Shown: piece by piece, positions 253 to 33,651 of the stretch
How positions within the stretch are numbered: the stretch's first letter is position 1
Layout: every line of letters starts with the position of its first letter
Assembly (NCBI GenBank): GCA_014728225.1
Contig: WJLX01000174.1
Coordinates: forward strand, 1-36,914
Direction of reading: 5' to 3'
DNA from: Candidatus Coatesbacteria bacterium
GTDB lineage: Bacteria > RBG-13-66-14
Length of the DNA: 36,914 nt
Notes under the pieces: generated by a model
Told to the model about the DNA's origin: nothing
The model's input: only the letters and a program-made list of their open reading frames with translations
Databases searched by the model: none
Program-made: the position numbers and the translations under genes

Positions 253-441
253 CGGCGGGAGACCCGGGAAACCAGCTCGCTCCCCCACGAGCGATGAACT
301 CCAACCCCCGGAACCGGCACGGTTTTTGCATCTCGGCAACCGTTAAGCACTGAGATAACGGTTCGCCTCCGCAAAAACCGTGCCGGTTCCGGGGGTTGGG
401 GCTGACGAAGCGCCGTAATGGCTTCCCGGGGTCTCCCGCCG
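253..441 (-). repeat. Nested palindromic element R1
   Basis: Outer arms 253-270 and 423-441 pair over 18 bp with one bulged base. Inner arms 301-329 and 371-399 pair perfectly over 29 bp and contain the family core GGAACCGGCACGGTTTTTGC. The innermost stem is AACCGTT (338-344) with AACGGTT (357-363). The asymmetric segment reads GCATCTCGGC on the left and GCCTCCGC on the right, which I define as reverse orientation. The element lies 13 bp past the iscU stop codon. Confidence 0.9.
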
Positions 442-454
442 CCGGCTCGAACGG

Positions 455-919
455 TTAATCGTCGTCGTCGGCGGCGGCCTCGGCGTGGTGGGCGTGATCG
501 CACTCGCCGCCGAGGTCCATCTTCTCGAGTTCCGGGCACTCACCCTTGCGCCGGCAGTGGTAGTGGGCGATGGCGGCGCGCAGGGCGTCGGTGGCCAGGT
601 TGCTGCAGTGCATCTTCAGCTTGGGCAGCCCGCCCAGGGCTTCGGCGACGCGGTCCCGGGTCAACTGTTCGGCCTCGTCGATGTGCAGGCCGACGGCCAG
701 CTCCGTGGTGACCGAGCTGGTGGCGATGGCCGCTCCGCAGCCGAAGGTTTTAAACTTGCACTGGGTGATGATCCCCTGTTCGTCGACCTTGATATACATC
801 TCCATGATGTCGCCGCAGGTGGGGTTGCCGACGCGGCCGATGCCGTCGGCGTCGTCGATGGTGCCGACGTTGCGCGGGTTCATGAAGTGGTCCATCACCT
901 TGTCGGTGTAGTTGGGCAT
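455..919 (-). CDS. iscU: IscU/NifU-type iron-sulfur cluster scaffold protein
   Basis: The 154-residue protein is a scaffold on which [2Fe-2S] clusters are assembled in the cytoplasm before transfer to apoproteins. The three conserved cysteine ligands are present: Cys35 in GNPTCGD, Cys61 in FGCGAAIA and Cys105 in KMHCSNLA. Asp37 follows the first cysteine as in the family. A longer frame starts at 964, but the start at 919 is preferred. It has GAGGAAGG just upstream, and a good promoter has its -10 box at 956-961, so the longer start would precede transcription. The C-terminus adds an unusual tail after residue 121 with two more cysteines, several histidines and an acidic end. No iscS or other isc gene is visible next to it, so its cysteine desulfurase must be encoded elsewhere. 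Confidence 0.94.
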   Translation of the reverse strand: MPNYTDKVMDHFMNPRNVGTIDDADGIGRVGNPTCGDIMEMYIKVDEQGIITQCKFKTFGCGAAIATSSVTTELAVGLHIDEAEQLTRDRVAEALGGLPKLKMHCSNLATDALRAAIAHYHCRRKGECPELEKMDLGGECDHAHHAEAAADDDD

Positions 920-955
920 GGCCTTCCTCGGGGTTGCGTTGAGGTTGCACCAACC

Positions 956-984
956 ATTATGCACTAATATTAGGAAAACGGCAA
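956..984 (-). promoter_or_regulatory. Sigma-70-type promoter for iscU
   Basis: On the minus strand TTGCCG (979-984) is followed after 17 bp by CATAAT (956-961). This places the start of transcription about 30 nt before the iscU start at 919 and decides between the two possible start codons. Confidence 0.7.
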
Positions 985-1002
985 TCCCTAGCGGGATATG
1001 TT

Positions 1003-1758
1003 TTATTCCTCCGGCTCCTCGTGGGAGCGCCCGGTGATGTTGAACAAGCGCCGCAGGGTCGCACCCACTTGGCTGAAGGCCTCGCGCAGCGGGGCCAGGA
1101 TGAAGGTCAGCAGCGGTCGCAGAATGAAGCGCCAGCTCCCGGACAGCAAGCGCTCCTTGAACCGGCGCTCACGCCTGACGCGCAGCCGGGGCAGCAGGAT
1201 GCCGCTGCCCCGGCGGTATTCCCGGTATTCATCGCCGTAACGCTCGAGGAGTTGGTCTTCCTCCCCGCCCAGGCGGAGCATAACCAGCGGCAGGGTCAGG
1301 ACAAAGGTCGCCGAACCGGCGAGGCCGTTCCACAGCAGCAGGGGCTGGGCCAGACCCCACAGCAGGTGGGCGGCGTACATCGGGTGTCGCAGCCTAGCGT
1401 AGACGCCGTCGGTCACCAGCTTGGTCTCGGCCTCGGCCGCGACGCCGGGGGACCAGTTCCGCCCCAGCTCGACGTGGGAGCGCCACAGCAGCCAGGTCGC
1501 CAGGCCGAACAGCAAACCGCCGCCTACCAAGGCGGCGGCGTTCAGTTCGTAATCGGCGAAGTCCAGCCAATCCGTCAGGGCGTAGGCCAGGGGCAACAGC
1601 AGCATCCCGGCGGCGGGGAACAGCAGAAAAATGTACGCCAAGGGTGAGGCCGCCGCCCGGCCCCGGCGCGCCCGCCGCAGCGGCGCCGTGTAACGCACCC
1701 GCACGGCGACCGCCAGGAAAAACCAGGCGAAGTAGACGATTACACCGGCCGACCGCAT
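1003..1758 (-). CDS. Isoprenylcysteine carboxyl methyltransferase (ICMT)-family membrane protein
   Basis: This 251-residue integral membrane protein has about five hydrophobic segments and the signature of the ICMT/phospholipid methyltransferase family. The motif GVYARLRHPMYAAHLL (roughly 138-153) and the later EEDQLLERYGDEYREY form the SAM-binding part of the family. Bacterial members methylate small hydrophobic substrates, and the substrate here cannot be read from sequence. The C-terminus continues about 60 residues beyond the usual end as a basic, partly amphipathic tail. GAGGAG lies 6 nt before the ATG. The gene begins 26 nt after the gatD stop codon, so the two are probably co-transcribed, although no functional link is obvious. 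Confidence 0.8.
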   Translation of the reverse strand: MRSAGVIVYFAWFFLAVAVRVRYTAPLRRARRGRAAASPLAYIFLLFPAAGMLLLPLAYALTDWLDFADYELNAAALVGGGLLFGLATWLLWRSHVELGRNWSPGVAAEAETKLVTDGVYARLRHPMYAAHLLWGLAQPLLLWNGLAGSATFVLTLPLVMLRLGGEEDQLLERYGDEYREYRRGSGILLPRLRVRRERRFKERLLSGSWRFILRPLLTFILAPLREAFSQVGATLRRLFNITGRSHEEPEE

Positions 1759-1784
1759 CCGAGCTCCTCAAACGTTGGGGAACG

Positions 1785-3179
1785 TCAGCGCCAGTGGTCG
1801 TGGAGGAACTCGTCGACCTCGGGCAGGCCGCCCTGTAGTACGACGTAGGCGTTGTACTGCTCGCGCTCGGTGATCTCGCCGTTGACCGGGGTCAGCATCA
1901 GCCGGCGGACCTCGTCGGCGTCATCGCTCATCCCCAGAGCCCAGCCGAGCTTGATGTAGGCCGTCTCGGGCAGCATGTTGGCCAGCGGAACGACGCCGAG
2001 CTCCATCAGATCGCGACCGGTGTCGTAGACGTACATCTGGGCGTAGCCCCAGAGGGTCTGAACGGTCATGTAAACCTGGACCCCGGCTTCGCAGGCCCGC
2101 CGCAGGGGCTCGTAGAGCGGCTTGTTGACGTGGCCCAGCCCGGTGCCGGCGATGACGATCCCCCGATAGCCGTTGTCCACCAGGCTGTCGATGATGTCCG
2201 GCTGCATGTTGGGGTAATAGTAGACGATGGCCACGCGCTCGTCGAAGACGGCGTGAAGCTTGAGCTCACGTTCGGGATCGCGCTGGGTGTAGTCCGGTCG
2301 CAGCGCCTCCGGCGGTGCCTCCGGCGTTACCGTGGCCAGGGGGGTGTCGCCCAGGGTGCGGAACGTGCTGCGGTACGAGCTGTGCATCTTGCGCACCCGG
2401 GTACCGCGGTGTAGCAGATTGTAACGGTCCGAGGTCGGACCGAACATGCAGACGACGACCTCGGCAACATCGCCGTGGGCCGCCGACTGGGCCGCGCACT
2501 GCAGGTTGAAGGCCGCGTCCGAGGACGGGCGATCACTGGAGCGCTGGCTGCCCACCAACACCACGGGAACGGGCAGGTCCTGCAGCATGAACGACAGCGC
2601 CGCCGAGGTGTGATGCAGGGTGTCGGTGCCGTGGCCGATGATGATCCCGGCCACCCCCTGCTCGATCTGTTCGGCGATCTCCCGGGCCGTGATCATGTAC
2701 TGCTCCGGACCCATGTTCTCACTGAAAACACCGAAAAGCTTCTTGGTCTCCAGGTTGCAGATGTCCGCCAACTCGGGACAGGCGCCGTATAGCTCGCCGG
2801 GGCTGAAGGCCGGGATGACCGCTCCCGTGCGATAGTCCAGCCGGCTGGCGATGGTGCCCCCCGTCCCCAGCAGGGTCACGTTGGGTTTGACCGGATCGAA
2901 GGGGAATTCCTGCTCCGGGATCTTGTAATGGGCCTCTTTGTAGTCGTGCTCGACGATGCCATTGATCCGCTCGACGGCGATGCCGATGTTGTAGCCGGTG
3001 ATCATCTTGAGCACGATGTGGCGGTCGTCGGCCTGTTCGGAGCGGGGAAGGATGATACCGGAGAACTCGCCGGTGTCCGTGGTGATGGTGCAGTCGCTCC
3101 AGACCCGGGCGCCCAGGCGCTCCAGCAATTCACGGGCCCGGCCGTGGTAGCCCTTGAAAGGATCCGTTGGTTGGCTCAT
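1785..3179 (-). CDS. gatD: GatD-like asparaginase (archaeal-type Glu-tRNA(Gln) amidotransferase subunit D)
   Basis: The 464-residue protein has the GatD layout: an N-terminal beta-barrel domain of about 90 residues, then an L-asparaginase domain. Asparaginase motifs are intact: LGTGGTIAS with nucleophile Thr109, GHGTDT at 182-187, and GSQRSSDRPSSDAAFNL. In archaea GatD makes ammonia from glutamine for its partner GatE, converting Glu-tRNA(Gln) to Gln-tRNA(Gln). Full-length GatD is typical of archaea, and no gatE is present in this window. It could work with a GatE encoded elsewhere, or be a free asparaginase/glutaminase that kept the extra domain. A minus-strand promoter lies at 3222-3250 and GAGG sits just before the ATG. 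The ICMT-family gene follows at once. Confidence 0.85.
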   Translation of the reverse strand: MSQPTDPFKGYHGRARELLERLGARVWSDCTITTDTGEFSGIILPRSEQADDRHIVLKMITGYNIGIAVERINGIVEHDYKEAHYKIPEQEFPFDPVKPNVTLLGTGGTIASRLDYRTGAVIPAFSPGELYGACPELADICNLETKKLFGVFSENMGPEQYMITAREIAEQIEQGVAGIIIGHGTDTLHHTSAALSFMLQDLPVPVVLVGSQRSSDRPSSDAAFNLQCAAQSAAHGDVAEVVVCMFGPTSDRYNLLHRGTRVRKMHSSYRSTFRTLGDTPLATVTPEAPPEALRPDYTQRDPERELKLHAVFDERVAIVYYYPNMQPDIIDSLVDNGYRGIVIAGTGLGHVNKPLYEPLRRACEAGVQVYMTVQTLWGYAQMYVYDTGRDLMELGVVPLANMLPETAYIKLGWALGMSDDADEVRRLMLTPVNGEITEREQYNAYVVLQGGLPEVDEFLHDHWR

Positions 3180-3221
3180 CGGTGCCTCGGTGATGGTGAA
3201 GGATGGCGGGGACAGGCGGCG

Positions 3222-3250
3222 ATTTTAGCAGGGCCGCCCGGTCGAGTAAA
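3222..3250 (-). promoter_or_regulatory. Promoter for gatD
   Basis: On the minus strand TTTACT (3245-3250) and TAAAAT (3222-3227) are separated by 17 bp. The site lies between R2 and gatD and about 40 bp before the gatD start. Confidence 0.6.
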
Positions 3251-3260
3251 GTGGACGCCG

Positions 3261-3458
3261 CGGGGGAGTTTTGAAAAACAGCCCGCCGTGGGGGCGGTCT
3301 TCTGCAAGACCGCCCCGCCGGAACCGGCACGGTTTTTGCGGAGGCGGAGCGTTATCATCGTCAGTAACGCTCGCCGAGATGCAAAAACCGTGCCGGTTCC
3401 GGCGGGGCAGCCCGGCGGTGCCGCGAAAAGCTGTTGGGCTGTTTTCAAAACTCCCCCG
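3261..3458 (+). repeat. Nested palindromic element R2
   Basis: Outer arms 3261-3284 and 3436-3458 pair along their length with a single extra A/T and carry the GAAAAACAGCCC box. Inner arms 3312-3339 and 3381-3408 are a perfect 28-bp match containing the core. The innermost stem AGCGTTA (3348-3354) with TAACGCT (3365-3371) carries a paired C-to-G/G-to-C change against other copies. Forward orientation. A competing hairpin, GGGGCGGTCT (3291-3300) with AGACCGCCCC (3307-3316), overlaps the left inner arm. The element sits between two divergent promoters. Confidence 0.9.
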
Positions 3459-3505
3459 GAGCCACCGCCGAACAGGGCCGTTCCGTGGTGGTCCAGCGGA
3501 CGCAG

Positions 3506-3534
3506 TTGTCGTTTAAACAACAAACGGCTATAAT
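3506..3534 (+). promoter_or_regulatory. Strong sigma-70 promoter for the secreted protein gene at 3624
   Basis: TTGTCG (3506-3511), a 17-bp spacer and a consensus TATAAT (3529-3534) predict a transcript start near 3541, giving a leader of about 80 nt. It lies 47 bp right of the outer arm of R2. Confidence 0.8.
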
Positions 3535-3623
3535 GTCCTGAATTGGGTTTGTTGCACTGACCCAACCATTACCGAGCGAGAAGAACCCGACATTTCGTTA
3601 TCATGACGACCGAGGAGATCACG

Positions 3624-4205
3624 ATGAAGAGAATCCTGCCGGCTTTGCTTACCCTGACCGTCCTGGCCGCCCTGGCCAACCCGACCCCGGACTGCTGGGC
3701 CAACGAGGAGCAGTTCATCAAAGAAATGCCCAAGCTGATGGACGAGGTCCAGCGCTTCGGCGACAAGTTCGTCGGTTTGCAGGACAAGATCGTCGCCGTG
3801 GCCGACCAACAGGGATTGCCGGTGCCCATCCCCCTCGTCGACTTCACCGACGTGCGCAACCTGGTCGTCAATCCCGTCGCCGGCTCGGCCCAGTTGATCG
3901 TCGACTTCCACCAGGAACTCACCGACGCCAACATGCGGATGCTCAAGGCCCAACTGGATACCGCCGAATGGGTCGTCGAGCAGAACGCGGTTCTGCTGCG
4001 CACGCTCAACGATCAGCTCGCCACGGCCAACCAGATGCTGATCGATGTCAACACAGCCCTGGCCGAAGCGGCCACCGATCAGCTCCAGGCGCTGCACGAC
4101 AACCTGGCCGACACCGTCGAGACCCTGACGGACATGGTCAACGACTGGACCGGCGTCTCGTCGGCCGCCGAGGCCATCGAGGACGTCTTCGACGACTGGT
4201 TTTAG
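3624..4205 (+). CDS. Secreted helical protein of unknown function
   Basis: The chosen start gives 193 residues; GAGGAG lies 6 nt upstream, better than an in-frame ATG 21 nt earlier. The N-terminus (MKRILPALLTLTVLAALA) is a signal peptide, with likely cleavage after the CWA region around residue 26. The mature protein appears almost wholly alpha-helical, acidic and rich in Gln, Leu, Asp and Ala, with heptad-like stretches (for example ANMRMLKAQLDTAEWVVEQN). I recognise no family. A strong promoter precedes it and a hairpin terminator follows, so it is its own transcription unit. A periplasmic or surface coiled-coil role is a guess. Confidence 0.75.
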   Translation: MKRILPALLTLTVLAALANPTPDCWANEEQFIKEMPKLMDEVQRFGDKFVGLQDKIVAVADQQGLPVPIPLVDFTDVRNLVVNPVAGSAQLIVDFHQELTDANMRMLKAQLDTAEWVVEQNAVLLRTLNDQLATANQMLIDVNTALAEAATDQLQALHDNLADTVETLTDMVNDWTGVSSAAEAIEDVFDDWF

Positions 4206-4231
4206 GCTGTCGTAGAGTTAGTGATAAGCGA

Positions 4232-4265
4232 CGACGGAACCGGGTAGCCGGTTCCGTCGCTGTTT
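4232..4265 (+). terminator. Hairpin terminator after the secreted protein gene
   Basis: CGACGGAACCGG (4232-4243) pairs perfectly with CCGGTTCCGTCG (4248-4259) around a GTAG loop, followed by a short T-rich run. It resembles the core of the R family only in GGAACCGG and lacks the rest, so I do not count it as an R copy. Confidence 0.7.
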
Positions 4266-4289
4266 CCCGGGGCGGCTTTCTGGTACAAT
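4261..4289 (+). promoter_or_regulatory. Extended -10 promoter for the UbiA-family gene
   Basis: TGGTACAAT (4281-4289) combines the extended TGn with a TACAAT -10 box. A weak -35, TGTTTC (4261-4266), is 17 bp upstream and overlaps the tail of the preceding terminator. Two other plus-strand genes here use TGTTACAAT. Confidence 0.55.
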
Positions 4290-4330
4290 CAGCGAACTAA
4301 TCCAGCGTCTGTACCATCGGGGAGGACCTG

Positions 4331-5242
4331 ATGCGACTCGTCATCGGGCTGTTCAAGCTGATGCGGCCCAAGCAGTGGCTCAAGAACGTCATCCTGTTCG
4401 CCGGGGTGGTCTTCGGTGAGCTGTTCACCATCCCCAGCGCCCTGTTGACGTCCCTGGCGGGCTTCGGTGTCTTCTGTATGCTGTCCGGCGCCGTCTACGC
4501 GCTGAACGATTCCGTCGACGCCGAGAAGGACCGCCTGCACCCGGAGAAGCGTCGGCGTCCCATCGCCGCCGGCGACGTCCCCCGCCCCCTGGGTTATGTC
4601 TGGTCCATCGTCCTGGCCGGCGTCGGCTTGTATCTGGCCTGGACGATCAACCTCAACTTCGCCGTCGTCGGCGCCGTCTACCTGACGCTCAACCTGGCTT
4701 ACAGCTTCTGGGCCAAGGGCGTGGTCATCCTCGATGTCTTCCTGATCGCCGTCGGCTTCGTCCTGCGGGCCATCGCCGGTGTCGAGGCCTTGGTGGCCCT
4801 GCCTTACGCGCCGCCGGACTTCGCCCCCTCGAGCTGGTTCCTGCTGGTGACCCTCTTCCTGGCCCTGTTTCTGGGGCTGGAGAAGCGCCGCGCCGAGATC
4901 AACTCCCTCAAGGACGGCGCTGCGGGGCACCGCAAGACCCTCGACCACTACTCCCCCCGCCTGTTGGATCAGATGAGCGCCGTGGTGACCACGGCCACCG
5001 TCATCGCCTACAGCCTGTACACCATGTGGCCCGACACTGTGGCCAAGTTCGGTACCAACGCCCTGGTCTACACCGTGCCGATCGTGCTGTTCGGCATCTT
5101 CCGCTACCTGTATGATGTCGACAAGCGCAACCTGGGCGGTAACCCGTCGACGATCCTGTTCAAGGACGCCTTCCTGCTGGTGACCGTGGTGGTCTGGGTG
5201 GCCGCCGTGGTGCTGATCCTGTACTTCAAGCCCCAGGTCTGA
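4331..5242 (+). CDS. UbiA-family prenyltransferase, decaprenyl-phosphate phosphoribosyltransferase-like
   Basis: The 303-residue polytopic membrane protein has the two Asp-rich regions of UbiA enzymes. The first reads NDSVDAEKDRLHPEKRRRPI (residues 58-77). The second is the LAYSFWAKGVVILDVFLIAV region (from about 119). The ND..DAE.DR.HP.KR.RPIA pattern is typical of the subgroup that transfers phosphoribose to decaprenyl phosphate, the first step to decaprenyl-phospho-arabinose in actinobacteria. A related sugar-lipid carrier role is likely, but the polyprenyl length and acceptor cannot be read from sequence. GGAGGA lies 4 nt before the ATG. The gene has its own promoter and a very good terminator, so it appears monocistronic. 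Confidence 0.82.
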   Translation: MRLVIGLFKLMRPKQWLKNVILFAGVVFGELFTIPSALLTSLAGFGVFCMLSGAVYALNDSVDAEKDRLHPEKRRRPIAAGDVPRPLGYVWSIVLAGVGLYLAWTINLNFAVVGAVYLTLNLAYSFWAKGVVILDVFLIAVGFVLRAIAGVEALVALPYAPPDFAPSSWFLLVTLFLALFLGLEKRRAEINSLKDGAAGHRKTLDHYSPRLLDQMSAVVTTATVIAYSLYTMWPDTVAKFGTNALVYTVPIVLFGIFRYLYDVDKRNLGGNPSTILFKDAFLLVTVVVWVAAVVLILYFKPQV

Positions 5243-5267
5243 TTGCTTCGGTTAGCTGTTGTCCATC

Positions 5268-5295
5268 GGGGCGGGTCCGTTGACCCGCCCCTTTT
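5268..5295 (+). terminator. Rho-independent terminator
   Basis: GGGGCGGGTC (5268-5277) pairs perfectly with GACCCGCCCC (5282-5291) around CGTT, followed by TTTT. It ends the UbiA-family gene. Confidence 0.9.
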
Positions 5296-5635
5296 CCTAG
5301 GGAGGCACCGGCGTTGGTTCCTCCGCCCCCTCGGCGCGGCCGCTCTGCTGGAAGAAAGGAGGGCGAACCCGCCGGTGCCGGCCGTCGTCGATAACTCCAA
5401 CACATGCACCAGGCCGAGCCGGTGCGCTCGGTGTGGATACCCGCAGCGGCATTGGCTGGGGTGGGCCAACCGTCGGGGGCAGTTTATCGTTTTGCGCTAT
5501 GCGATATTCATCTGAGGTATTTTACCGACTGTTTTTTGTTAGGGATCATCACAGAAGATTACATCAGCTATTGCAGTTGGGCACTTATATCGGCGTGATC
5601 GGGTCTGTCATTCCGCCACCGATGAGGGGGGCAAT
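5296..5635. other. Gene-free stretch with more AT-rich DNA upstream of a transposase remnant
   Basis: No credible gene is seen. From about 5490 the composition turns markedly richer in A and T than the surroundings, a mark of foreign DNA. The segment GGGTCTGTCATTCCGCCA near 5600 looks like an insertion-sequence end of the IS1595 type, but I could not find a matching right end. Confidence 0.35.
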
Positions 5636-6103
5636 GTGGCGGGGAAGTGCGGGTCGCGGGAGCGGCGCGCCAAGCGTCCCGGCTGCAACGACCGTTACCA
5701 CTACCGCCGCGCCGAGGGAAGTCAAAAGGCCAGCGTCGCGGCAAGCCGTTCAAGCGTCGTCGCCGGGGCGTCGCAACGCGCCGCCGGAAAAACGCGGCGA
5801 GATAGCGCGTCTGTTCCGGCTCGGCGTCCCGACGGCGCGGGTCGCAACGGTCCCGGGCAGCCGGCGCGATACGGCATATCGCTACTACGAGCGAATCCGC
5901 CGGCGCTTGGCCGCCGTTGGCCAGGCCGCGCTCGACCCGACCAGCTACACCGATACGCCGACGGCCGGCGAGCCTGGACGAAACTGTCGCTCAACGGCTT
6001 CCACCACAGGCGCGTCGAGCACCAACGGGAATTAGCCTACGGCGGAATAATCAACAAAAGCATCAACGGTATCGAGACTTCCGAGGCTACGCAGAACGCC
6101 GCC
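5636..6103 (+). pseudogene. Decayed IS1595-family transposase
   Basis: Pieces of an IS1595/ISXO2-type transposase appear in order but in different frames. A zinc-ribbon-like start (KCGSRERRAKRPGCNDRYHYRR) is at 5645-5710. A helix-turn-helix region (EIARLFRLGVPTARV then RDTAYRYYERIRRRLA) follows in another frame at about 5800-5920. Then comes the C-terminal part (YADGRRAWTKLSLNGFHH, then SINGIETSEATQNA) at about 5955-6100. The NGIE motif carries the last catalytic residue of the family. The central catalytic portion between the HTH and the C-terminal part is missing, so the element has both frameshifts and an internal deletion and cannot move by itself. Confidence 0.75.
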
Positions 6104-10336: not shown

Positions 10337-11326
10337 ATGCGGCCGGAGCTGCGGGACCACCTGCACCGTGGTCTGCGCGACAGCGCCGTCGACCTCGTCT
10401 TTCCCGCTGCCCGGGAACCGGCCGCCCTGCTCCCCCTGGTCGGCGCCGCCGCCGCCCTCGTCGGCTGGCGACCCACCGCCGAGCTGCTGGCCGCGGCGCG
10501 CTTCCTGCGCCTGTTCATCAACCCCGGCGCCGGCGTCCAGGGCATCGTCCACCTCTTCCGCGAACTTAACACCGGGCGCGAGCCCCCCGTCGTCCTGGTC
10601 AACGGCCACGGCAACGCCTGCTTCACCGCCCAGCACACCGTGGCCCTGCTGCTGGCGCTGACCAACCGCATCCTGCCCCACCACAACTGGCTCGCCGCCG
10701 GACGCTGGCGCACCGGCGACGCCGAGGCCGCCTCGCTGCCCCTGCGCGGCCGCCGCCTGGCCCTGCTGGGCTACGGTCACGTCAACCGTCGAGTCCACCG
10801 CCTCCTCGCCGGCTTCCCCCTCGAATTCGCCGCCCTGCGGCGCGACTGGCGGAACGCCGCGCAGGACCCGCCGACCCCGCTGCGCCGCTGCGGCACCGCC
10901 GAACTCGCCGAACTGCTGGACTGGGCCGACATCCTCGTCTGTTGCCTGCCCGAGACCTCGGCCACCCGCGGCCTGATCGGCCGTGACGAGCTGGTCCGCC
11001 TGGGCCGCCGCGGGCTGCTGGTCAACGTCGGCCGGGGTCCCGTCGTCGACGAGAACGCCCTCTACGAGGCCCTCGACCAGGGACTCATCGCCGGCGCCGC
11101 CCTCGACGTCTGGTACGACTACCAACCCGCCGCCGACAGCACCGGACGCCGTCACCCCTGGCACCGGCCCTTCAACGAACTGAACAACGTCGTCCTCTCG
11201 CCCCACCGCGCCGCCTCGCCCTTCGATGACCTCGGGCGCTGGAACGAGGTCATCGAGAACCTGAAACGCCTGGCCGCCGGAAGGGACGACTTCCTCAACG
11301 TCGTCGATCTCGAGCTGGGCTACTAG
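10337..11326 (+). CDS. D-isomer-specific 2-hydroxyacid dehydrogenase-like protein
   Basis: The 329-residue protein has the two-domain layout of NAD-dependent D-2-hydroxyacid dehydrogenases, which interconvert 2-oxo acids and D-2-hydroxy acids. The nucleotide loop reads GYGHVN, where the third glycine of GxGxxG is asparagine. The NVGRGPVVDE segment carries the catalytic arginine and SPHRAA the catalytic histidine. In the usual DVFxxEP motif this protein has DVWYDYQP, so the catalytic glutamate seems to be glutamine. The reaction may therefore be changed or lost. The frame is open upstream with family-like residues (RRVVFLRP) but without a standard start codon, so the ATG at 10337 is tentative. 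The stop codon overlaps the outer arm of R3. Confidence 0.82.
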   Translation: MRPELRDHLHRGLRDSAVDLVFPAAREPAALLPLVGAAAALVGWRPTAELLAAARFLRLFINPGAGVQGIVHLFRELNTGREPPVVLVNGHGNACFTAQHTVALLLALTNRILPHHNWLAAGRWRTGDAEAASLPLRGRRLALLGYGHVNRRVHRLLAGFPLEFAALRRDWRNAAQDPPTPLRRCGTAELAELLDWADILVCCLPETSATRGLIGRDELVRLGRRGLLVNVGRGPVVDENALYEALDQGLIAGAALDVWYDYQPAADSTGRRHPWHRPFNELNNVVLSPHRAASPFDDLGRWNEVIENLKRLAAGRDDFLNVVDLELGY

Positions 11327-11514
11327 CCGCCGTTGAAATACAAACGCCTGAACCGCCGCAAGACCTTCATCTACCACGCCGGAACCGGCACGGTTTTTGC
11401 GGAGGCGAACCGGCCTGAAGACTTCGAAGACCGCCGAGATGCAAAAACCGTGCCGGTTCCGGCGGCGCTGATTCAACAACGCTGCCGAGAACAAACGGTC
11501 TTTCAACGGCGGCT
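11325..11514 (+). repeat. Nested palindromic element R3
   Basis: Outer arms AGCCGCCGTTGAAA (11325-11338) and its perfect complement (11501-11514) flank inner arms 11377-11400 and 11441-11464 (24 bp, perfect, with the family core). Forward orientation: GCGGAGGC left, GCCGAGATGC right. The innermost stem is weaker than in other copies. The left outer arm starts inside the stop codon of the dehydrogenase gene. The element separates that gene from the BtrH-like gene on the same strand. Confidence 0.9.
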
Positions 11515-12555: not shown

Positions 12556-12983
12556 AGCGCACGGCGATCAGCTTCTCCAGCGATCGTTCAACCTTGACCC
12601 CCGCCGATCTCCAGCCCTTCTTCGTCGGCTGGCCCAATCCGCCGGAGGAGGCTGTCCGGCTGCAAATCCTCCGCCGAGCAGACCTGGTGATTCTGGCTCG
12701 GGTTCACGGTCGACTGGTCGGCTTCGTCACCTGCCTGACCGACGGCCTGCTCAGCGCTTTCATCCCCCTGCTCGAGGTGCTGCCCGAGCACCAGGGACGC
12801 GGGATCGGATCGCAGCTGATCCAGCGTCTGCTGGACGAGCTGGGACCGCTGTACGCCGTCGACGCCGTCTGCGATCCGCCGACGGCGACCCTCTACGAAA
12901 ACCTGGGTTTCACCCGACTTTGCGGTATGGCCCGCCGGGAACTCAGCCTTCAACGGGGAAGAACACCGGCGAGCGAGCGTTGA
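12552..12983 (+). CDS. GNAT-family N-acetyltransferase
   Basis: The 143-residue protein is a GCN5-related acetyltransferase that would transfer an acetyl group from acetyl-CoA to an amine. Motif A reads LEVLPEHQGRGIGSQLIQRL (about residues 74-93), with the Q-G-R-G-I-G acetyl-CoA pyrophosphate loop. ATLYENLGF near residue 115 is the usual C-terminal motif. A GTG start at 12552 is preferred because it overlaps the previous stop (GTGA). An earlier in-frame ATG would lie deep inside the BtrH-like gene. The last eight codons (RTPASER and stop) form part of the left outer arm of R4, so the 3' end of this gene is mirrored 150 bp downstream. The substrate is unknown. Confidence 0.85.
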   Translation: MKRTAISFSSDRSTLTPADLQPFFVGWPNPPEEAVRLQILRRADLVILARVHGRLVGFVTCLTDGLLSAFIPLLEVLPEHQGRGIGSQLIQRLLDELGPLYAVDAVCDPPTATLYENLGFTRLCGMARRELSLQRGRTPASER

Positions 12984-13175
12984 AAAACAGGCCCGCCACC
13001 GACTAAATCCGCCGGAACCTTAGCCCCGGAACTGGCACGGTTTTTGCATCTCGGTGACCGTTGGCGCGATGCTAACGGTTCACCTCCGCAAAAACCGTGC
13101 CAGTTCCGGGGCAAGTGTCGGTGGCGGCTCAGCGAGCGGGGGAGCCTGTTTTTCAACGCTCGCTCGCCGGTGTTC
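12961..13175 (-). repeat. Nested palindromic element R4, the most complete copy
   Basis: Three stems nest perfectly. The outer arms 12961-12992 and 13144-13175 pair over 32 bp. The middle arms CCGCCACCGAC (12993-13003) and GTCGGTGGCGG (13117-13127) pair over 11 bp. The inner arms 13023-13047 and 13088-13112 pair over 25 bp. The innermost stem is ACCGTT (13057-13062) with AACGGT (13074-13079). The inner stem has ACTGG paired with CCAGT where the other copies have ACCGG/CCGGT, a compensatory pair. Reverse orientation. The left outer arm includes the last 23 bases of the GNAT gene. Confidence 0.95.
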
Positions 13176-18480: not shown

Positions 18481-18690
18481 TCGGCGTCCCCCCGCGGCGA
18501 CCCACGCCCTCCACCCCGCTTCACCGACACCACCCCGACCCGGCCCCGGAACCGGCACGGTTTTTGCGGAGGCGCAGCGTTGCCGCCGCACCAACGGGCG
18601 CCGAGATGCAAAAACCGTGCCGGTTCCGGGGCCGGGGAAGCGATATCCTGCACGGTACGGGGAGTCTAGTCGCCGCGGGCGGGGCGCCGA
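18481..18690 (+). repeat. Nested palindromic element R5
   Basis: Outer arms 18481-18501 and 18669-18690 pair with one bulge and one mismatch. Inner arms 18539-18567 and 18608-18636 pair perfectly over 29 bp and contain the core. The innermost stem is short, CGTTG (18578-18582) with CAACG (18592-18596). Forward orientation. It lacks the GAAAAAC box seen in several other outer arms. It lies between two divergent promoters, and its right end is only 9 bp from the -35 box of the regulator gene. Confidence 0.85.
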
Positions 18691-18782: not shown

Positions 18783-20132
18783 TTGAAAATCCTCATCGTC
18801 GACGATCACCAGCCGACCCTGGCCCTGTTGTCGGCCATCGTCAAGAAGGGTGACTACGAGCCCCTGACCACGGAACGGGCCAAAGAGGCCCTCAAACTGC
18901 TCAACGAGAAACAGATCGGCGTGGTGTTCACCGACCTGGTGATGCCCCAGATGGGCGGACTGGAGTTCCTCAAGCGGGCCAAGGCCGTCGAACCGGACCT
19001 GCCGATAATCGTAATGACGGGTCAGGGTACCATTGAGAGCGCCGTCGAGGCCATGCGTCACGGCGCCGAGGACTACCTGACCAAACCCATCGCCCGCAGC
19101 GAGGTGCTGCTGCAGATCGAGCGCGCCCTGGAAAAACGCCGCCTGGTGACCGAGAACCGGGAGCTGCGCGGCGAGCTGGCCGAGCGCTACTCCTACGACA
19201 AGCTGATCGGCAACTCGCGCCAGATGAAAGAGGTCTACTCGATCATCGCCAAGGTGGCCCCCTCCGACGTCACGGTGATGATCAGCGGTGAGAACGGCAC
19301 GGGCAAGGACCTGGTGGCCCGGGCGCTGCATTACAACTCCCGCCGCTCTGCGGGACCCTTCGTCAAGATCGACTGCACCGCCCTGCCCGAGGGGCTGTTG
19401 GAGAGCGAGCTCTTCGGTTACAAGAGAGGCGCCTTCACCGGAGCCGACCGCGACAAGCCGGGCCGGGTCGAAAACGCCGAAAACGGCACCTTGTTTCTCG
19501 ACGAGATCAGCGATCTGACGATGCCCCTGCAGGCCAAGGTGCTGCGCCTGATCCAGGAGCACCGCTTCGAGCGTCTGGGCGAGAACAAGACCCGCAGCGT
19601 CGACGTGCGCATCCTGGCGGCCACCAACCGTGACCTGGAGAAGGAGATCGAGCGCGGCGCCTTCCGCCGGGACCTCTTCTACCGCCTCAACGTCGTGCCC
19701 ATCGAGCTGCCACCGCTGCGGGAACGCGAGGGCGACGTGCTGCTGCTGGCCACCAGGCTGCTCGAGCGGACCTGCGAACGTTACGAGCGGCGCAGCGGCG
19801 GTTTCGAGCCCGAGGCCGTCGACGCCCTGATGCGCTACCGCTGGCCGGGCAACGTCCGCGAGCTGGAAAACCTGATCGAACGCCTGGTCGTCCTCGCCGA
19901 CGGCCAGACCGTCCGCGTCGGGCTGGACGACCTGCCCGACGATGTCGTCGCCGCCGAGGACAGCTTCCTCAGCCAGGCCGCGGCCCGCGACCTCTCCCTG
20001 GAGGAGCTGGAGAAGGAATATATCAAGGTCGTGCTGACCAAGACCGGCGGCCACAAAGCCAAGGCCGCCGAGCTGCTGGGCATCAACCGCAAGACCCTGC
20101 TGGAAAAGCGCAAGCGCTACGGCCTGGATTGA
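18783..20132 (+). CDS. Sigma-54-dependent response regulator (NtrC family)
   Basis: The 449-residue regulator has three domains in order. The receiver domain has the acidic pair Asp7-Asp8, phosphorylation site Asp51 in VVFTDLVMP, and Lys101. The AAA+ domain has Walker A GENGTGKD (169-176), the sigma-54-contacting GAFTGA (216-221) and Walker B LFLDEI. A Fis-type helix-turn-helix (KAKAAELLGINRKTLLEKRK) ends the protein. All residues needed for phosphorylation, ATP hydrolysis and sigma-54 contact are present. The start is a TTG with a strong AGGAGGGG upstream; an alternative ATG would cut into the receiver. No sensor kinase is adjacent, so it is an orphan here. Two lipoprotein genes follow on the same strand. 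Confidence 0.94.
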   Translation: MKILIVDDHQPTLALLSAIVKKGDYEPLTTERAKEALKLLNEKQIGVVFTDLVMPQMGGLEFLKRAKAVEPDLPIIVMTGQGTIESAVEAMRHGAEDYLTKPIARSEVLLQIERALEKRRLVTENRELRGELAERYSYDKLIGNSRQMKEVYSIIAKVAPSDVTVMISGENGTGKDLVARALHYNSRRSAGPFVKIDCTALPEGLLESELFGYKRGAFTGADRDKPGRVENAENGTLFLDEISDLTMPLQAKVLRLIQEHRFERLGENKTRSVDVRILAATNRDLEKEIERGAFRRDLFYRLNVVPIELPPLREREGDVLLLATRLLERTCERYERRSGGFEPEAVDALMRYRWPGNVRELENLIERLVVLADGQTVRVGLDDLPDDVVAAEDSFLSQAAARDLSLEELEKEYIKVVLTKTGGHKAKAAELLGINRKTLLEKRKRYGLD

Positions 20133-22954: not shown

Positions 22955-23152
22955 CCCGGGCGATCCTGGAAAAACCCACAGTAATCCGGCTCGCGCTGCA
23001 GCCGGACACGCCGGAACCGGCACGGTTTTTGCGGAGGCCGACCGTTATCCTCGTTCGTAACGGTCGCCGAGATGCAAAAACCGTGCCGGTTCCGGCGGTC
23101 GGGGATACCGGGGGGCGCATGGTGGTGGGCTGTTTTTCCAGGATCGCCCGGG
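22955..23152 (+). repeat. Nested palindromic element R6
   Basis: Outer arms 22955-22978 and 23126-23152 pair with a small bulge and share the GGAAAAAC/GTTTTTCC box. Inner arms 23009-23032 and 23074-23097 pair perfectly over 24 bp with the core. The innermost stem GACCGTTA (23040-23047) with TAACGGTC (23058-23065) is 8 bp. Forward orientation. It lies between convergent genes, 10 bp from the stop of the minus-strand GT90 gene. Confidence 0.92.
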
Positions 23153-27532: not shown

Positions 27533-27721
27533 CGCGCCGCAGACCGCCGAAAACGAGCGGACACTCGAGACCCCGCGCCGCCGGAACCGGCACGGTTTTT
27601 GCGGAGGCGGACCGTTGCCGACCCCTCCAACGGTTGCCGAGATGCAAAAACCGTGCCGGTTCCGGCGGCGCTCCAGGCGTCGTTAACGCCGAAGCCGCAT
27701 TTTTCGGCGGTCTGCGGCGCG
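27533..27721 (+). repeat. Nested palindromic element R7
   Basis: Outer arms 27533-27553 and 27701-27721 pair perfectly over 21 bp. Inner arms 27575-27602 and 27644-27671 pair perfectly over 28 bp and contain the core. The innermost stem is ACCGTTG (27611-27617) with CAACGGT (27628-27634), changed in step compared with ACCGTTA/TAACGGT in R6 and R8. Forward orientation. It lies upstream of the DUF5683-like gene, between divergent genes. Confidence 0.92.
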
Positions 27722-28066: not shown

Positions 28067-30496
28067 ATGAGCCCCCAACACGCCAAGCCCGGCTTCTTCG
28101 ACCGCGTCGGCACCTTCTTCAAGAACCTGTTCCGTAAGAGTCCGCCGCGGCGCGATCTGGACGGCAAGCCGCTGCCGCAGGCTCGGCGGGCCTTCAGCTG
28201 GCACACGGCCATCATCGTCATGGTGGTGACGGTCTTCTTCCTCGGCGGCATCGGTCTGGGGCTGCTGTTCGCCTTCTCCGACGATCTGCCCAAGATTTCC
28301 GGGCTGTGGGAGTTCGACAGCTACCTGCCGACGGAGGTCTACGACGCCGACGACCAACTGATCGCCAGCTTCCTGGTCGAGCGCCGCTACGTCGTGCCGA
28401 TGTCGCGGATGCCCCAGAACCTGGTCAACGCCACCCTGGCCGTCGAGGACCAGCGGTTCTACGATCACTGGGGGGTCAACCTCTACCGCACCCTGGAGGC
28501 GGCGATGGTCGATATCATCGCCGGAGCCAAGATCCAGGGCGCCTCGACGATCACCCAGCAGTTGGCCCGCAATTACTTCCTGACGATGGAGAAGACCTAC
28601 GTGCGCAAGATCCGGGAGGCCATCCTGGCCGTCCAGATCGAGAAGCGCTACTCCAAGGAAGAGATCCTCTACTTCTACCTCAACCAGATCTATTACGGAC
28701 ACGGTTGCTACGGTGTGGAGGCGGCGGCGCGAACCTTCTTCAACAAGCACGTCGAGGAACTGACCCTGCCCGAGGCGGCGCTGTTGGCCGGACTGCCCAA
28801 GAACCCGGGCGGTTTCTCACCCTACCTCAACCCGGACCGCGCCAAGCGCCGACGCAACACCATCCTCTGGCTGATGGCCGAGGTGGGTCACATCACCGAA
28901 GAGGAACGGGCCTGGGCCGCCGCTCAGCCCTTGGAGCTGGCCCAACGCCGACGCACCGAGCAGAAGGCGCCCTATTTCATCGAGTACATCCGCAGCGAGC
29001 TGGAGAAGGAGTTCGGTTCCAACGCCGTCTATCAGGCGGGGATGAAGGTCTACACCACCCTGGATTCGCGGATGCAGGAGCTGGCCGAGAAGCACGTCGC
29101 CGCCGGGCTGGAGCGGGTCCAGCAGCGCTGGAACTACCAGCCGATGCGCTACGACGACGGCCTGGAGATCGCCGAGCTCGAGCTGGGGCAGATCCGTGAG
29201 GGCCGCGTCCTCGAGCGTGACGACGAGTACGCCTACATCGACATCGGCGGCGGCATCACCGGGCGGATCGATATCACGCCGCTGTACTGGCACTGGGACA
29301 ACCCGCCGGAGATCGAGCTTCAGACGGGCTCGACGGTGCCGGTCAAGGTGACCAGCCTGGCGCGCTCGGCGGGTCGGGTGGACCTCTCCCTGGAGAAACC
29401 GCCCTACCCCCAGGCGGCCCTGGTGAGCATCGATCCGCGCACCGGCTTTATCCAGGCCATGGTCGGCGGCTCGGACTACGACGAGAGCCAGTTCAACCGG
29501 GCGGTCTACGCCCGCCGCCAGCCGGGCTCGGCTTTCAAGGTCTTCGTCTACACCGCGGCGATCGATTCGGGGTATTCAGCGGCCGATGTGATGCTGGATA
29601 AACCTTTCGTCATCAACGCCGACGGTGTCGTCTGGGCGCCGCACAACTACTCGCTGGGCTACTCGGGCAAGCCGATGACCTTCCGCCAGGCGATGGCGAT
29701 GTCGATCAACCTGGTGGCGGCGCGGCTGATCCTGCAGATCGGCGTCGAGCCGGTGCGGGCCTACGCCAAACGGATGGGGATCGAATCGCCCATCGCCCAC
29801 ACCTACTCGATCGCCCTGGGCTCCTCCGAGGTCACCCCCCTGGAGATGGCCTCGGCCTTCGGCACCATCGCCACCCTGGGAGTCCATGTCGAGCCTACGG
29901 CGATCCGCTATATTCTGGACCGCGACGGCAACAAGATCAAGGAGGTCGTCCCCCGGGCCGAGGTGGCCCTGCGCAAGGAGACGGCGGCGATCATCCGCTC
30001 GATGATGCACGGCGTCACCACCCAGGGCACCGCCGGGCGCGCGGCCCGCACACTGGGCCGGGACTGCGCCGGCAAGACCGGCACCACCAACAACGCCGAG
30101 GACTGCTGGTTCATCGGTTACGTGCCCCAGCTTTCCACGGCGGTCTGGGTGGGGTTCGACGACCACCGCACCCTGGGCTACAATGCCACGGGCGAGTCCC
30201 ACGCCGTCCCGCTGTGGAGCGATTACATGGCCGACGTCCTCGAGGAGTACGAGGTTCAGGACTTCACCCTGCCCGAGGGCCTGGCCCTGGAGCGTCACAC
30301 CGTCTGTGGCGAAACGGGGCTGCTGGCCCGGCCCGAGTGCCCGCACAAGGTGGGCGAGGACTTCATCGCCGGCACGGCGCCGACCCAGTTCTGCGATCTC
30401 CACGGCGCCGGGGCCACGGACTGGATGAGCGAGGACGCCGCCCGCCTGCAAGGTGACGATCCGGTACGCTACGTCTATCCGGAGGAAGAGGATTAA
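28067..30496 (+). CDS. Class A penicillin-binding protein (PBP1A type)
   Basis: The 809-residue bifunctional enzyme polymerises lipid II and cross-links stem peptides in the periplasm. A cytoplasmic start and one membrane segment (about 45-70) precede the GT51 transglycosylase domain, with catalytic Glu in VEDQRFYDHWG and the GASTITQQLARN motif. An OB/S1-like domain (IREGRVLERDDEYAYIDIGG onward) is inserted as in PBP1A proteins. The transpeptidase domain has SxxK in PGSAFK, SxN in AMSINL and the KTGT box in AGKTGTTNN. All catalytic residues are present. The frame is open upstream, but the ATG at 28067 fits both the promoter and the family N-terminus. It heads a cluster with an NlpC/P60 hydrolase and an O-antigen ligase-like gene. 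Confidence 0.95.
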   Translation: MSPQHAKPGFFDRVGTFFKNLFRKSPPRRDLDGKPLPQARRAFSWHTAIIVMVVTVFFLGGIGLGLLFAFSDDLPKISGLWEFDSYLPTEVYDADDQLIASFLVERRYVVPMSRMPQNLVNATLAVEDQRFYDHWGVNLYRTLEAAMVDIIAGAKIQGASTITQQLARNYFLTMEKTYVRKIREAILAVQIEKRYSKEEILYFYLNQIYYGHGCYGVEAAARTFFNKHVEELTLPEAALLAGLPKNPGGFSPYLNPDRAKRRRNTILWLMAEVGHITEEERAWAAAQPLELAQRRRTEQKAPYFIEYIRSELEKEFGSNAVYQAGMKVYTTLDSRMQELAEKHVAAGLERVQQRWNYQPMRYDDGLEIAELELGQIREGRVLERDDEYAYIDIGGGITGRIDITPLYWHWDNPPEIELQTGSTVPVKVTSLARSAGRVDLSLEKPPYPQAALVSIDPRTGFIQAMVGGSDYDESQFNRAVYARRQPGSAFKVFVYTAAIDSGYSAADVMLDKPFVINADGVVWAPHNYSLGYSGKPMTFRQAMAMSINLVAARLILQIGVEPVRAYAKRMGIESPIAHTYSIALGSSEVTPLEMASAFGTIATLGVHVEPTAIRYILDRDGNKIKEVVPRAEVALRKETAAIIRSMMHGVTTQGTAGRAARTLGRDCAGKTGTTNNAEDCWFIGYVPQLSTAVWVGFDDHRTLGYNATGESHAVPLWSDYMADVLEEYEVQDFTLPEGLALERHTVCGETGLLARPECPHKVGEDFIAGTAPTQFCDLHGAGATDWMSEDAARLQGDDPVRYVYPEEED

Positions 30497-30511
30497 CCAC
30501 CGGGAGAACCG

Positions 30512-31861
30512 ATGAAAGCGCGGTCTGCGCTGCTGCTGCTGCTGTCAGTCTTAGCGGTCCCGGCCCTCGCCGGCGCCGTCGTCGAGGACGTGGCCTACGA
30601 TCCCGCCGCCCGGGCCCTGACGATCTCCGTCACCGCCGACGAGGCTCCGGCCTGGAACGACTTCGAACTCAGCGGCCCTTCCCGGGTGGTGCTGGACGTT
30701 TCGGCCGACTCCAGCTTCCCCGGCAACGCCTTCAGCGCCCCGGTGGGCGACGGACTGGTGGAGCGTATCCGCGCCGCCCGTCATCAGCCCGATCCCCCGG
30801 TGACCCGGATCGTCGTCGACCTGGCCGCCGGAACCACGGGCTACGCCGTCAGCCTGGAGGGCGACGCTCCCAACTACACCGTTCGACTGAGCCTCTACCC
30901 CCCCGACGAGGTTCGTCTGGCCGAAGAGGAAGCCGCCGGCATCGAGGCTGCCCACTCGGGAGAGCTGACCGTCGGCGAGGGCGACGCCGAGGCCCCCCCG
31001 GGACATCAGACGCAGAAGCTGGTAATCGCCGTCAGCCCGACGGCGGTGCGCGAAGCGCCTTCGGCGGCCGCCCGCCGGGTCTCCGAGGCCCTGGCCGGCG
31101 AAGGGGTCCGTCAGACCGCCGAACTGGGCGACTGGCGGTTGGTGATCCTGACCGAGCAGGACGACCTGGCCGGCTGGGTCCGGGAGGACGACCTGGCCCC
31201 GGCGGGCAGCGTCGAACGCGACGAAGGCGGCGTACGCGCCGTCCCCAACCCGCGCACCCCGCCCGCGGGCACACCGCAGACCCCGCAAGGCGGCAGGGCT
31301 CCCCTGCGCAACGAGGCTCGTGAGGGCGCCGCGATCATCGCCCACCTGGGCCCGGGAACCGACTTCAACGCCTGGCGCCGCCGCGACGACTGGTACTTCA
31401 TCGTCCTCGGGGACGGCCGCGCCGGTTGGATCCACCGGCGCTACGCCTCCCTGGGCGGCGCCGAGGAAGGCCCCACCTCCCCCTGGCGCCAGGCGATCGT
31501 CTCGACCGCCGAGGGCTACCTGGGAACGCCCTACGTCTGGGGCGGCACCACGGCCACGGGCTTCGACTGCTCCGGCCTGGTCTGGCGCGTCTTCAAACAG
31601 AACGGCATCGAAGTCCCCCGCACCGCCGGACCCCAGTACCGCGAGGGTCGCAAGCTCGACCGCGACGAGCTGCTGCCGGGTGACCTGATCTTCTTCCACA
31701 CCTACTCCTCCGGCCCCAACCACGTCGGCATCTACGCCGGTGACGGCCGCTTCATCCAGGCCGAGAGCTCCCCCGCCGGAGTGCGCTACTCCGAGTTGGA
31801 CGGCGATTATTGGCGCGATCACATCTACGGCTACACCCGTTGGACCCCGGTGGAGCAGTAG
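30512..31861 (+). CDS. AMIN-SH3-NlpC/P60 cell-wall hydrolase
   Basis: The 449-residue protein begins with a signal peptide cleaved near residue 21. An AMIN-type domain (about 22-130) would bind peptidoglycan. Two bacterial SH3-like regions follow (about 170-235 and 260-315), joined by a Pro-rich linker. The C-terminal NlpC/P60 peptidase domain has the catalytic Cys in GFDCSGL and His in GPNHVGIY, with the GTPYVWGGTT lead-in. Such enzymes cut the bond next to the diamino acid in stem peptides. The ATG lies 15 nt after the PBP1A stop and has GGGAG upstream, so the pair is co-transcribed and joins wall synthesis with wall cutting. Confidence 0.92.
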   Translation: MKARSALLLLLSVLAVPALAGAVVEDVAYDPAARALTISVTADEAPAWNDFELSGPSRVVLDVSADSSFPGNAFSAPVGDGLVERIRAARHQPDPPVTRIVVDLAAGTTGYAVSLEGDAPNYTVRLSLYPPDEVRLAEEEAAGIEAAHSGELTVGEGDAEAPPGHQTQKLVIAVSPTAVREAPSAAARRVSEALAGEGVRQTAELGDWRLVILTEQDDLAGWVREDDLAPAGSVERDEGGVRAVPNPRTPPAGTPQTPQGGRAPLRNEAREGAAIIAHLGPGTDFNAWRRRDDWYFIVLGDGRAGWIHRRYASLGGAEEGPTSPWRQAIVSTAEGYLGTPYVWGGTTATGFDCSGLVWRVFKQNGIEVPRTAGPQYREGRKLDRDELLPGDLIFFHTYSSGPNHVGIYAGDGRFIQAESSPAGVRYSELDGDYWRDHIYGYTRWTPVEQ

Positions 31862-31890
31862 CCGCCTCCTCCAGCCCCCCACCAACGCCC

Positions 31891-33444
31891 ATGCTGCTGG
31901 AAAACCCACTCAAGCGCCTCGACAGACGAAAAGTGGGCGGCTTTTTCGCCCTGCTGGTCTTCTGCGCCCTGGTGGTCGGCGGCATCGTCTACCTCAGCTA
32001 TTATCAAAACAGCCTGTTCCTGTCGCTGGTCTTCGTGCTCGGTCTCGGCGGCATGATGATGTTCCTGGCCATCTCCGGACTGGAGAACTTCCGCCAGATC
32101 TGGGGTTTCGTCGCCGTGGCCATGATCCCCCTGGCCCTGACCGGTGATGTAGAGCTCGGCCCCTTCAAGGCCTCCTTCGGCATCCTGGTTTACATGATCA
32201 ACACCCTGATCATCGTGGCCGATAAGCTCTCCGGTTACACACGAGCCAACGAAAAACGCTCCGTTTTCAGCAAGCCCCTGCGGCTGCTGCTGATCCTGAC
32301 CGTCATCTCGACCCTGCTCTCCGCTTTCCGCCTTTACGGAATCATCGACCTGGCCTATTTCCTGCTGGCGTCCAGCACCTTCGTCTTCCTCCGCCGTTAC
32401 TTCAACACCAAAGAGCAACAGCTCAAACTGATCAAGCTGTTCGCCTTCGTCAGCATCTACATTCTGCTGATCGCCACCGCCGAGCACCTCAAACAGGGTA
32501 ACTACAACGCCTTGCTCACGGGGTTCAAGCCCTACGAGGGACTGGGCGACGAGCGCTTCCGTGTCAACGGCATTTTCCACAACGCCAACTCCTACGGCTT
32601 CTTCGCCGGGGCCGTCTCCCTGTTCTTCGGAGGGTTGAGCCTCTACTTTCATAAGCGTCGCCAACGCCTCTGGACCTATATCAGCGCGGGGATCTTCGTC
32701 TGGGGCGCCGCCACCCTATGGTTCTGCCAGTCCCGCGGCGCCTTCATCGCCTACCTGGCCGCCCTGCTGTTCCTGGTGCTGGCCGCCCCACCGCCGAAAA
32801 AACGCTTCGGGGTCTGGGTCGTCGTCATCCCGCTGATGGTGGGCGTCATCGCCTGGCTGTTCGTCTTCTCGGACACCGGCAGCCGCCTGACCAACCTCTC
32901 AGCCCTGACCACGCGCAGCATCCAAATCGCCACCGCCGAGGACGTCAAGGAGCAGATGAACCTGATCGCCACCCTGGCGAGACCCATCCTGTGGATCATC
33001 GGCTTCAAGCTCTGGCAGGCCAGCCCCCTGTTGGGCATCGGCCACTCCAACACCATCCACTACATCGGTCCCTACCTGCCGCCAATGCTGCGGCCGATTC
33101 AGGGCATCCTCTTCCACTTCCACTCCATTTATTTAAACATCCTCTACGAGGGCGGTTTACTCAGTTTCGGCGCCTTCCTGTGGTTTCTCGGCAAGTTGAT
33201 CAGCCATGTCTTCGGTGGCCTGCGCCACCGGGGGTATTTCACCGGCTATGCCTCCCTGGCCCTGGGCGCCGTCTGGGTCCACCTCTTCGCCCACGGGCTG
33301 GTCGACACCACCTTCGCCATGGGGCGACACTACGCCGAAGCCGGCATCTTCTTCCTCTTTCTGGCCTTTCAGGCCTTTATCGCCGACAGGGTTAAACGCC
33401 GCCGGCACATCGCCAAGCTGCGCCGGGAACGAGCGAGCTACTAG
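31891..33444 (+). CDS. O-antigen ligase / polymerase-family membrane protein
   Basis: The 517-residue protein has about 11-12 hydrophobic segments and the Wzy/WaaL-type region. SPLLGIGHSNTIHYIG is followed by the large periplasmic loop, and FHFHSIYLNILYEGGLLSFG is the typical family motif with its conserved histidine. These proteins ligate or polymerise undecaprenyl-linked glycans on the outer face of the inner membrane. Whether it is a ligase or polymerase cannot be decided from sequence. The ATG at 31891 lacks a clear ribosome-binding site; the frame extends upstream into the NlpC gene. It is 29 nt after that stop, so it probably belongs to the same transcript. Its stop is 13 bp before R8. 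Confidence 0.85.
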   Translation: MLLENPLKRLDRRKVGGFFALLVFCALVVGGIVYLSYYQNSLFLSLVFVLGLGGMMMFLAISGLENFRQIWGFVAVAMIPLALTGDVELGPFKASFGILVYMINTLIIVADKLSGYTRANEKRSVFSKPLRLLLILTVISTLLSAFRLYGIIDLAYFLLASSTFVFLRRYFNTKEQQLKLIKLFAFVSIYILLIATAEHLKQGNYNALLTGFKPYEGLGDERFRVNGIFHNANSYGFFAGAVSLFFGGLSLYFHKRRQRLWTYISAGIFVWGAATLWFCQSRGAFIAYLAALLFLVLAAPPPKKRFGVWVVVIPLMVGVIAWLFVFSDTGSRLTNLSALTTRSIQIATAEDVKEQMNLIATLARPILWIIGFKLWQASPLLGIGHSNTIHYIGPYLPPMLRPIQGILFHFHSIYLNILYEGGLLSFGAFLWFLGKLISHVFGGLRHRGYFTGYASLALGAVWVHLFAHGLVDTTFAMGRHYAEAGIFFLFLAFQAFIADRVKRRRHIAKLRRERASY

Positions 33445-33457
33445 GCAACGTCCGAGC

Positions 33458-33651
33458 CCCCGCGCTCCGGAAAAACGGCCTCTTCGACGGAGCCGTTCGT
33501 CAGCCGACGGCGCCGGAACCGGCACGGTTTTTGCATGTCAGCCACCGTTAGAGCTCTTGTAACGGTCGGCTTCCGCAAAAACCGTGCCGGTTCCGGCGCA
33601 GCGGTAACCATCGGCGGGCCGTCTTGCCGGGGTTTTTTCCGGGGCGCGGGG
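33458..33651 (-). repeat. Nested palindromic element R8
   Basis: Outer arms 33458-33475 and 33634-33651 pair with one T-G wobble and hold the GGAAAAAC/GTTTTTTCC box. A short middle stem, ACGGCC (33475-33480) with GGCCGT (33617-33622), follows. Inner arms 33510-33534 and 33575-33599 pair perfectly over 25 bp with the core. The innermost stem is ACCGTTA (33544-33550) with TAACGGT (33560-33566). Reverse orientation, with GCATGTCAGCC and GGCTTCCGC as slightly diverged asymmetric segments. It lies between convergent genes. Confidence 0.92.

Follow-up and report, generated by a model that had tools for sequence, protein, structure and literature searches.

The window analysed here is a stretch of 36,914 nucleotides of contig WJLX01000174.1 from Candidatus Coatesbacteria bacterium (GCA_014728225.1). 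It contains eight copies (R1-R8) of a nested palindromic element of about 200 bp, all located between genes or touching gene ends, as first described. The copies are listed below, with the strand of each inner arm in parentheses.

R1, 253-441, minus strand: sigma-54-like inner arms 310-329 (+) and 371-390 (-), with 41 bp between them; an outer arm at each end.
R2, 3261-3458, plus strand: inner arms 3320-3339 (+) and 3381-3400 (-); the outer arm is TTTTCAAAACTCCCCCG, paired with its complement.
R3, 11325-11514, plus strand: inner arms 11381-11400 (+) and 11441-11460 (-); tip hairpin not kept.
R4, 12961-13175, minus strand: inner arms 13028-13047 (+) and 13088-13107 (-); C-to-T on both arms; outer arm perfect over 33 bp.
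R5, 18481-18690, plus strand: inner arms 18548-18567 (+) and 18608-18627 (-); left breakpoint of an inversion; 5' of an NtrC-type activator gene (18783-20132).
R6, 22955-23152, plus strand: inner arms 23013-23032 (+) and 23074-23093 (-).
R7, 27533-27721, plus strand: inner arms 27583-27602 (+) and 27644-27663 (-); missing from the orthologous gap in the sister genus.
R8, 33458-33651, minus strand: inner arms 33515-33534 (+) and 33575-33594 (-); right breakpoint of the inversion; orientation opposite to R5.

The shared design of the eight copies proposed in the first-pass annotation is borne out. The core, GGAACCGGCACGGTTTTTGC, and its reverse complement are present at all eight places, giving 16 half-sites in the window and none in 100 shuffles. 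One of the half-site pairs (in R4) carries a matched single change. The inner stem is perfect over 24-29 bp, as reported earlier, and consists of the 20-bp core with an extension of 4-9 bp. The small ACCGTT/AACGGT stem at the tip, originally ascribed to every copy, is found in most of them, but it is altered in R2 and R5 and absent in R3. Terminal inverted repeats are present in R1-R8, and each outer arm aligns with its own partner with a score of about 19, compared to about 8 with the arm of another copy. Every window copy folds into nested hairpins, with energies of -97 to -174 kcal/mol.

With up to two mismatches allowed, 275 forward and 259 reverse half-sites are found in the genome (2.96 Mb, 181 contigs), and none in the control. 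There are 237 strict pairs, corresponding to about 240-270 copies, which supplies the whole-genome count proposed earlier. The density of one element per 4.6 kb noted for the window is correct, and the genome mean is lower, about one per 11 kb. Assembly duplication had been considered as a trivial origin. The copies are located on many contigs, however, and a sister genome, assembled separately, contains a version of its own, so this origin is rejected.

A pattern scan of 84,980 species genomes finds related elements only in Candidatus Coatesbacteria isolate Bin_537. This isolate has an element locus identical to that of G001, which belongs to another genus of the same family, and is taken as the G001 genome (to be referred to as the sister genome). 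The sister genus has its own arm version, with the inner arm GGC(G/T)TTGGCAC(G/A)(T/C)TT(C/T)TTGC, and the nested layout is unchanged. No element is present in the 123 kb searched of a third genus (G003), and viral contigs show no match. No open-access paper was found on Coatesbacteria palindromic repeats or on repeated sigma-54 palindromes. The R1-R8 family is a new, lineage-limited family of dispersed palindromes. One sister-genome contig (L148:1-289) has a 123-bp perfect inverted repeat around the element core, probably an assembly fold-back at the palindrome.

The earlier reading overlooked what the inner arms contain. The part conserved across genera is GGCACG-N4-TTGC, which is present on both arms and faces inward. 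Known sigma-54 sites have TGGCACG-N4-TTGC at -24/-12 (Barrios 1999 consensus, cited in PMC3844500). In the element arms, ten bases separate a GG at -24 from a GC at -12, in this same context, and by consensus both inner arms are predicted sigma-54 (RpoN) -24/-12 promoter cores. The bases common to both genera are GGCAC(G)-N-TT-N-TTGC, of which GG, A, TT and TTGC show little or no variation, while the rest of the arm drifts. The variation is located in the N4 spacer, in the upstream bases and at positions that are variable in known sigma-54 sites as well. Agreement with TTGGCACG-N4-TTGC at each of the 12 fixed positions is seen in 57 arms from a sample of the sister genome. With up to two mismatches, and GG and GC kept, 176 arm sites match in this genome, where two thirds of the arms have C instead of T before GG, and half have G after TTGC. 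Isolated intergenic sites outside the elements, with 0-1 mismatch and a called downstream gene, are all in the sense orientation.

Strict convergent pairs of sigma-54 cores were searched for in 386 genomes. There are 106 in this genome, 128 in G001, a single one in each of G002 and G006, which represent two further genera of the family, and none in the 379 genomes outside the family. The exact core and spacing are thereby present on both arms in four genera. The single pair in G006 (L214:749-816) has perfect arms and that in G002 (L213:1501-1569) imperfect arms; both are possible low-copy forms of the element.

Both carrier genomes and most relatives encode rpoN, and each carrier has 9-10 matches to the activator domain, some of them weak. 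The NtrC-type sigma-54 activator gene of the window (18783-20132) adjoins R5, and in the sister genus, too, an element lies upstream of it. Another copy lies directly 3' of rpoN in this genome (G000 C26:10493-11140, L156). The gap between genes 11 and 12 of L156, near rpoN, is 376 bp with an element here, and 13 bp and empty in the rpoN contig of the sister.

The outer arms are made up of a second motif, about 16 bp long and situated 60-90 bp upstream of the two predicted starts. Its versions are GTTTTTCAAAGGTCTC in this genome and GGTTTGGCGAAGGTCGC in the sister genus, with TT..C.AAGGTC.C in common. The distance from this motif to the core is about 29 or 39-41 bp in the sister genus. These spacings are one helical turn apart, as expected for proteins on one face of the DNA; the spread is wider in this genome. 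Sigma-54 forms a stable closed complex, and its upstream activator sequences (UAS) are found about 70-150 bp upstream (PMC3844500). The outer motif is near this usual distance and might be an activator site. This role is a guess, as the motif is not found at the isolated sigma-54 sites of the same genomes. In this genome the outer arm carries a T-run, which is missing from the version of the sister genus.

The sequence of the arms differs between copies, and the two arms within one copy match in the Watson-Crick sense. In a 24-row alignment of the inner stems, 26 cells are changed on both sides, none is changed on one side only or unpaired, and no G-U pairs are found. The 85 main-type copies show only two single core changes, plus one small indel. 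The outer arms have 1695 Watson-Crick pairs and 52 mismatches, and the nine G-T pairs among the latter equal the random share. G-U intermediates would be expected under selection on an RNA hairpin. Without an excess of such pairs, RNA selection on the stems is not supported, and a DNA-level process is indicated instead. Template switching between inverted repeats yields matched double changes in both arms without G-U intermediates, and also flips the spacer (PMC8794818, PMC8604942, PMC7202029). Such quasipalindrome homogenisation is a mutational process and the R1-R8 family is a set of elements, but the matched double changes in both arms are alike. Spacer asymmetry does not correlate with inner orientation in this genome, and spacer flipping fits the absence of this link. 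From the matched arms we infer that template switching probably homogenises the elements at the DNA level, and they constitute a large natural data set for this type of repair of inverted repeats. The spacers have an outward excess of G and T, which could mean outward transcription but equally an eroded palindrome.

The positions of the copies relative to genes were compared to those of intergenic gaps, using gene calls from a home-made codon model, so that distances to genes are approximate. No called gene is overlapped by more than 20 bp among the sampled copies. In this genome, 55, 17 and 10 of 82 copies lie in tandem, convergent and divergent gaps, respectively, compared to 117, 38 and 42 of 197 comparison gaps (at least 200 bp). 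The corresponding numbers for the sister genus are 21, 4 and 1 of 26, compared to 77, 15 and 22 of 114. Inner orientation relative to the genes is random (28 versus 24). Convergent gaps, where both promoters would be antisense, are neither enriched nor avoided (17/82 versus 38/197). The lack of enrichment argues against terminators, and the lack of avoidance indicates that the elements are not positioned so as to drive genes. Divergent gaps seem under-used in this genome (10/82 versus 42/197) and in the sister (1/26 versus 22/114), although the distribution is non-significant in either genome alone. Such under-use is expected if insertion there is harmful.

Copies have been gained and lost between the genera. 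Among 89 gene pairs that are adjacent in both carriers, an element is found only here in six, only in the sister in five, in both in three and in neither in 75. Whole units are present or absent; for example, one gap measures 234 bp in one genome and 5 bp in the other, and for another gap the lengths are 15 and 240 bp. The three common sites carry each genome's own arm version, and may represent independent insertions or concerted evolution. The dispersal part of the non-autonomous mobile element suggested in the first-pass annotation is thereby supported. Intergenic DNA is too diverged between the genera for element junctions to be read at orthologous empty sites.

The segment from R5 to R8 (18481-18690 to 33458-33651) is inverted relative to the sister genome, which has elements at both matching junctions. 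At these junctions G003 has the gene order of the sister, and no elements. Given this order and the opposite orientations of R5 and R8, the inversion most likely arose in this lineage through recombination between two copies, a case that links such repeats to inversions. Of the chromosome-organising or recombination site envisaged earlier, the recombination part is supported by this one clear case. Elements are found at 9 of 12 lost adjacencies and 9 of 27 kept ones (p = 0.035, gap length controlled, contig ends included), a weak association in a small sample.

The first-pass annotation recognised no REP/BIME, CRISPR or MITE family, and comparison with these classes agrees. REPINs and BIMEs with RAYT (Y1) transposases are, like the R1-R8 family, intergenic, palindromic, lineage-specific and present in hundreds of copies. 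The R1-R8 elements differ in their length of about 200 bp, two nested stems and sigma-54 core. Moreover, there is no Y1 (PF01797) transposase in this genome or in the sister, so a REP/BIME-RAYT system is not supported, and the search for a linked transposase suggested earlier finds none of this type. Y1 transposases occur in several Coatesbacteria relatives without a high-copy element. The copies are 1.6-8 kb apart and in both orientations, without the short regular spacing of a CRISPR array. An intrinsic terminator is likewise not supported, as the elements show neither enrichment in convergent gaps nor a bias in orientation to the genes, and the T-run is not kept in the sister genus. Rfam gives no match at the window elements or at four other loci; only a tRNA was matched.

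Bacterial MITE-type repeats (Correia, ERIC, NEMIS, RUP) and mobile promoters are short, non-coding and dispersed, with terminal inverted repeats, and some carry promoters. The class is reviewed in PMC2229807 and PMC10969869. The R1-R8 family shares its short, non-coding, dispersed form and terminal inverted repeats, but has copy-specific, perfectly matched arms, and sigma-54 rather than sigma-70 signals. In addition, direct repeats at the element ends are no commoner than in shuffled pairs, which speaks against a MITE with target duplication. The double-hairpin elements and GC clusters of fungal mitochondria have paired hairpins that vary in sequence and stay paired. This is a likeness to R1-R8 by description; a mobile DNA family from yeast mitochondria is the subject of PMC4478555. 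The fungal elements are mitochondrial and shorter. To our knowledge, they have no promoter motif.

The explanation that we favour, with some reserve, is a dispersed DNA element of about 200 bp that has two putative inward-facing sigma-54 promoter cores on its inner arms and two UAS-like motifs on its outer arms. As in sigma-54 promoters with UAS, there is a GG-N10-GC core per arm and a second motif, a possible activator site, near UAS distance, and rpoN and activators are encoded. Here, however, two such putative promoters are convergent within a perfect inverted repeat, and the repeats number in the hundreds and are not positioned to serve genes. A selfish, non-autonomous palindromic repeat, MITE- or REP-like, would have no host function, and its sigma-54 likeness would be incidental or only aid its own spread. 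We regard this as unlikely, though it would account for the gain and loss at orthologous sites, the strictly intergenic location, the fewer copies in divergent, promoter-bearing gaps and the lack of preference for driving genes. Against it are the absence of a target duplication signal, of a Y1/RAYT transposase in both carriers and of a larger autonomous copy in the 704 kb sampled, and the fact that the part conserved between genera is the sigma-54 core.

A structured RNA, or a bidirectional terminator or 3'-end element with the hairpin formed in the transcript, is improbable. The hairpins are very stable and the outer arm has a T-run in this genome, but the sister genus lacks this run, orientation is random, convergent gaps are not enriched and copies are also found in divergent gaps. 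G-U is not enriched among the mismatches and is absent from the inner stems, and Rfam has no match; the transcript-end structure proposed earlier is not supported on these grounds. We give equally little credence to a chromosome-organising or recombination site for another protein, such as a nucleoid protein or recombinase, that resembles sigma-54 sites by chance. The copy density genome-wide, the elements at both R5-R8 breakpoints and the breakpoint association would fit such a site. It does not explain the exact core and spacing on both arms in four genera, when the chance of one 20-base arm matching ten fixed positions is about 1e-5 by our own estimate.

The R1-R8 family remains most likely, as judged from its sequence, a double-ended sigma-54 docking or promoter site. 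Sigma-54 RNA polymerase would dock on both inner arms. From the outer motif, 60-90 bp upstream, an enhancer-binding protein would open the polymerase complex, and each inward-facing promoter would fire outward through the opposite arm. Template switching between the inverted repeats during replication would copy one arm onto the other and keep them identical. Spread of the elements may occur in trans or through recombination, and two copies in inverted orientation could recombine and so invert the DNA between them. A broader proposal is tentative, and we consider it rather doubtful as a whole: hundreds of units, each combining a pair of promoters with a pair of activator sites for bidirectional RpoN docking, would form a dispersed, mobile sigma-54 module that wires a large regulon or acts as polymerase roadblocks or insulators, with promoters kept identical by template switching and palindromes that seed inversions. 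If true, hundreds of copies of a regulated promoter pair would have arisen through the multiplication of a dispersed repeat, a direct illustration of how a repeat could build or jam a regulon.

A second repeat type is also present in these genomes. It consists of GGCGCGGTTNTTGC, a copy-specific perfect hairpin of 12-13 bp, and GCAAGAACCGTGACG, with conserved mismatches between its arms. There are 25 strict copies in this genome, three in the sister genus and one in G005. Its locations include the following.

Second repeat type, L041:19104-19177, L044:5260-5329, L050:151-222 and others; in G001, C63, C331 and C405.
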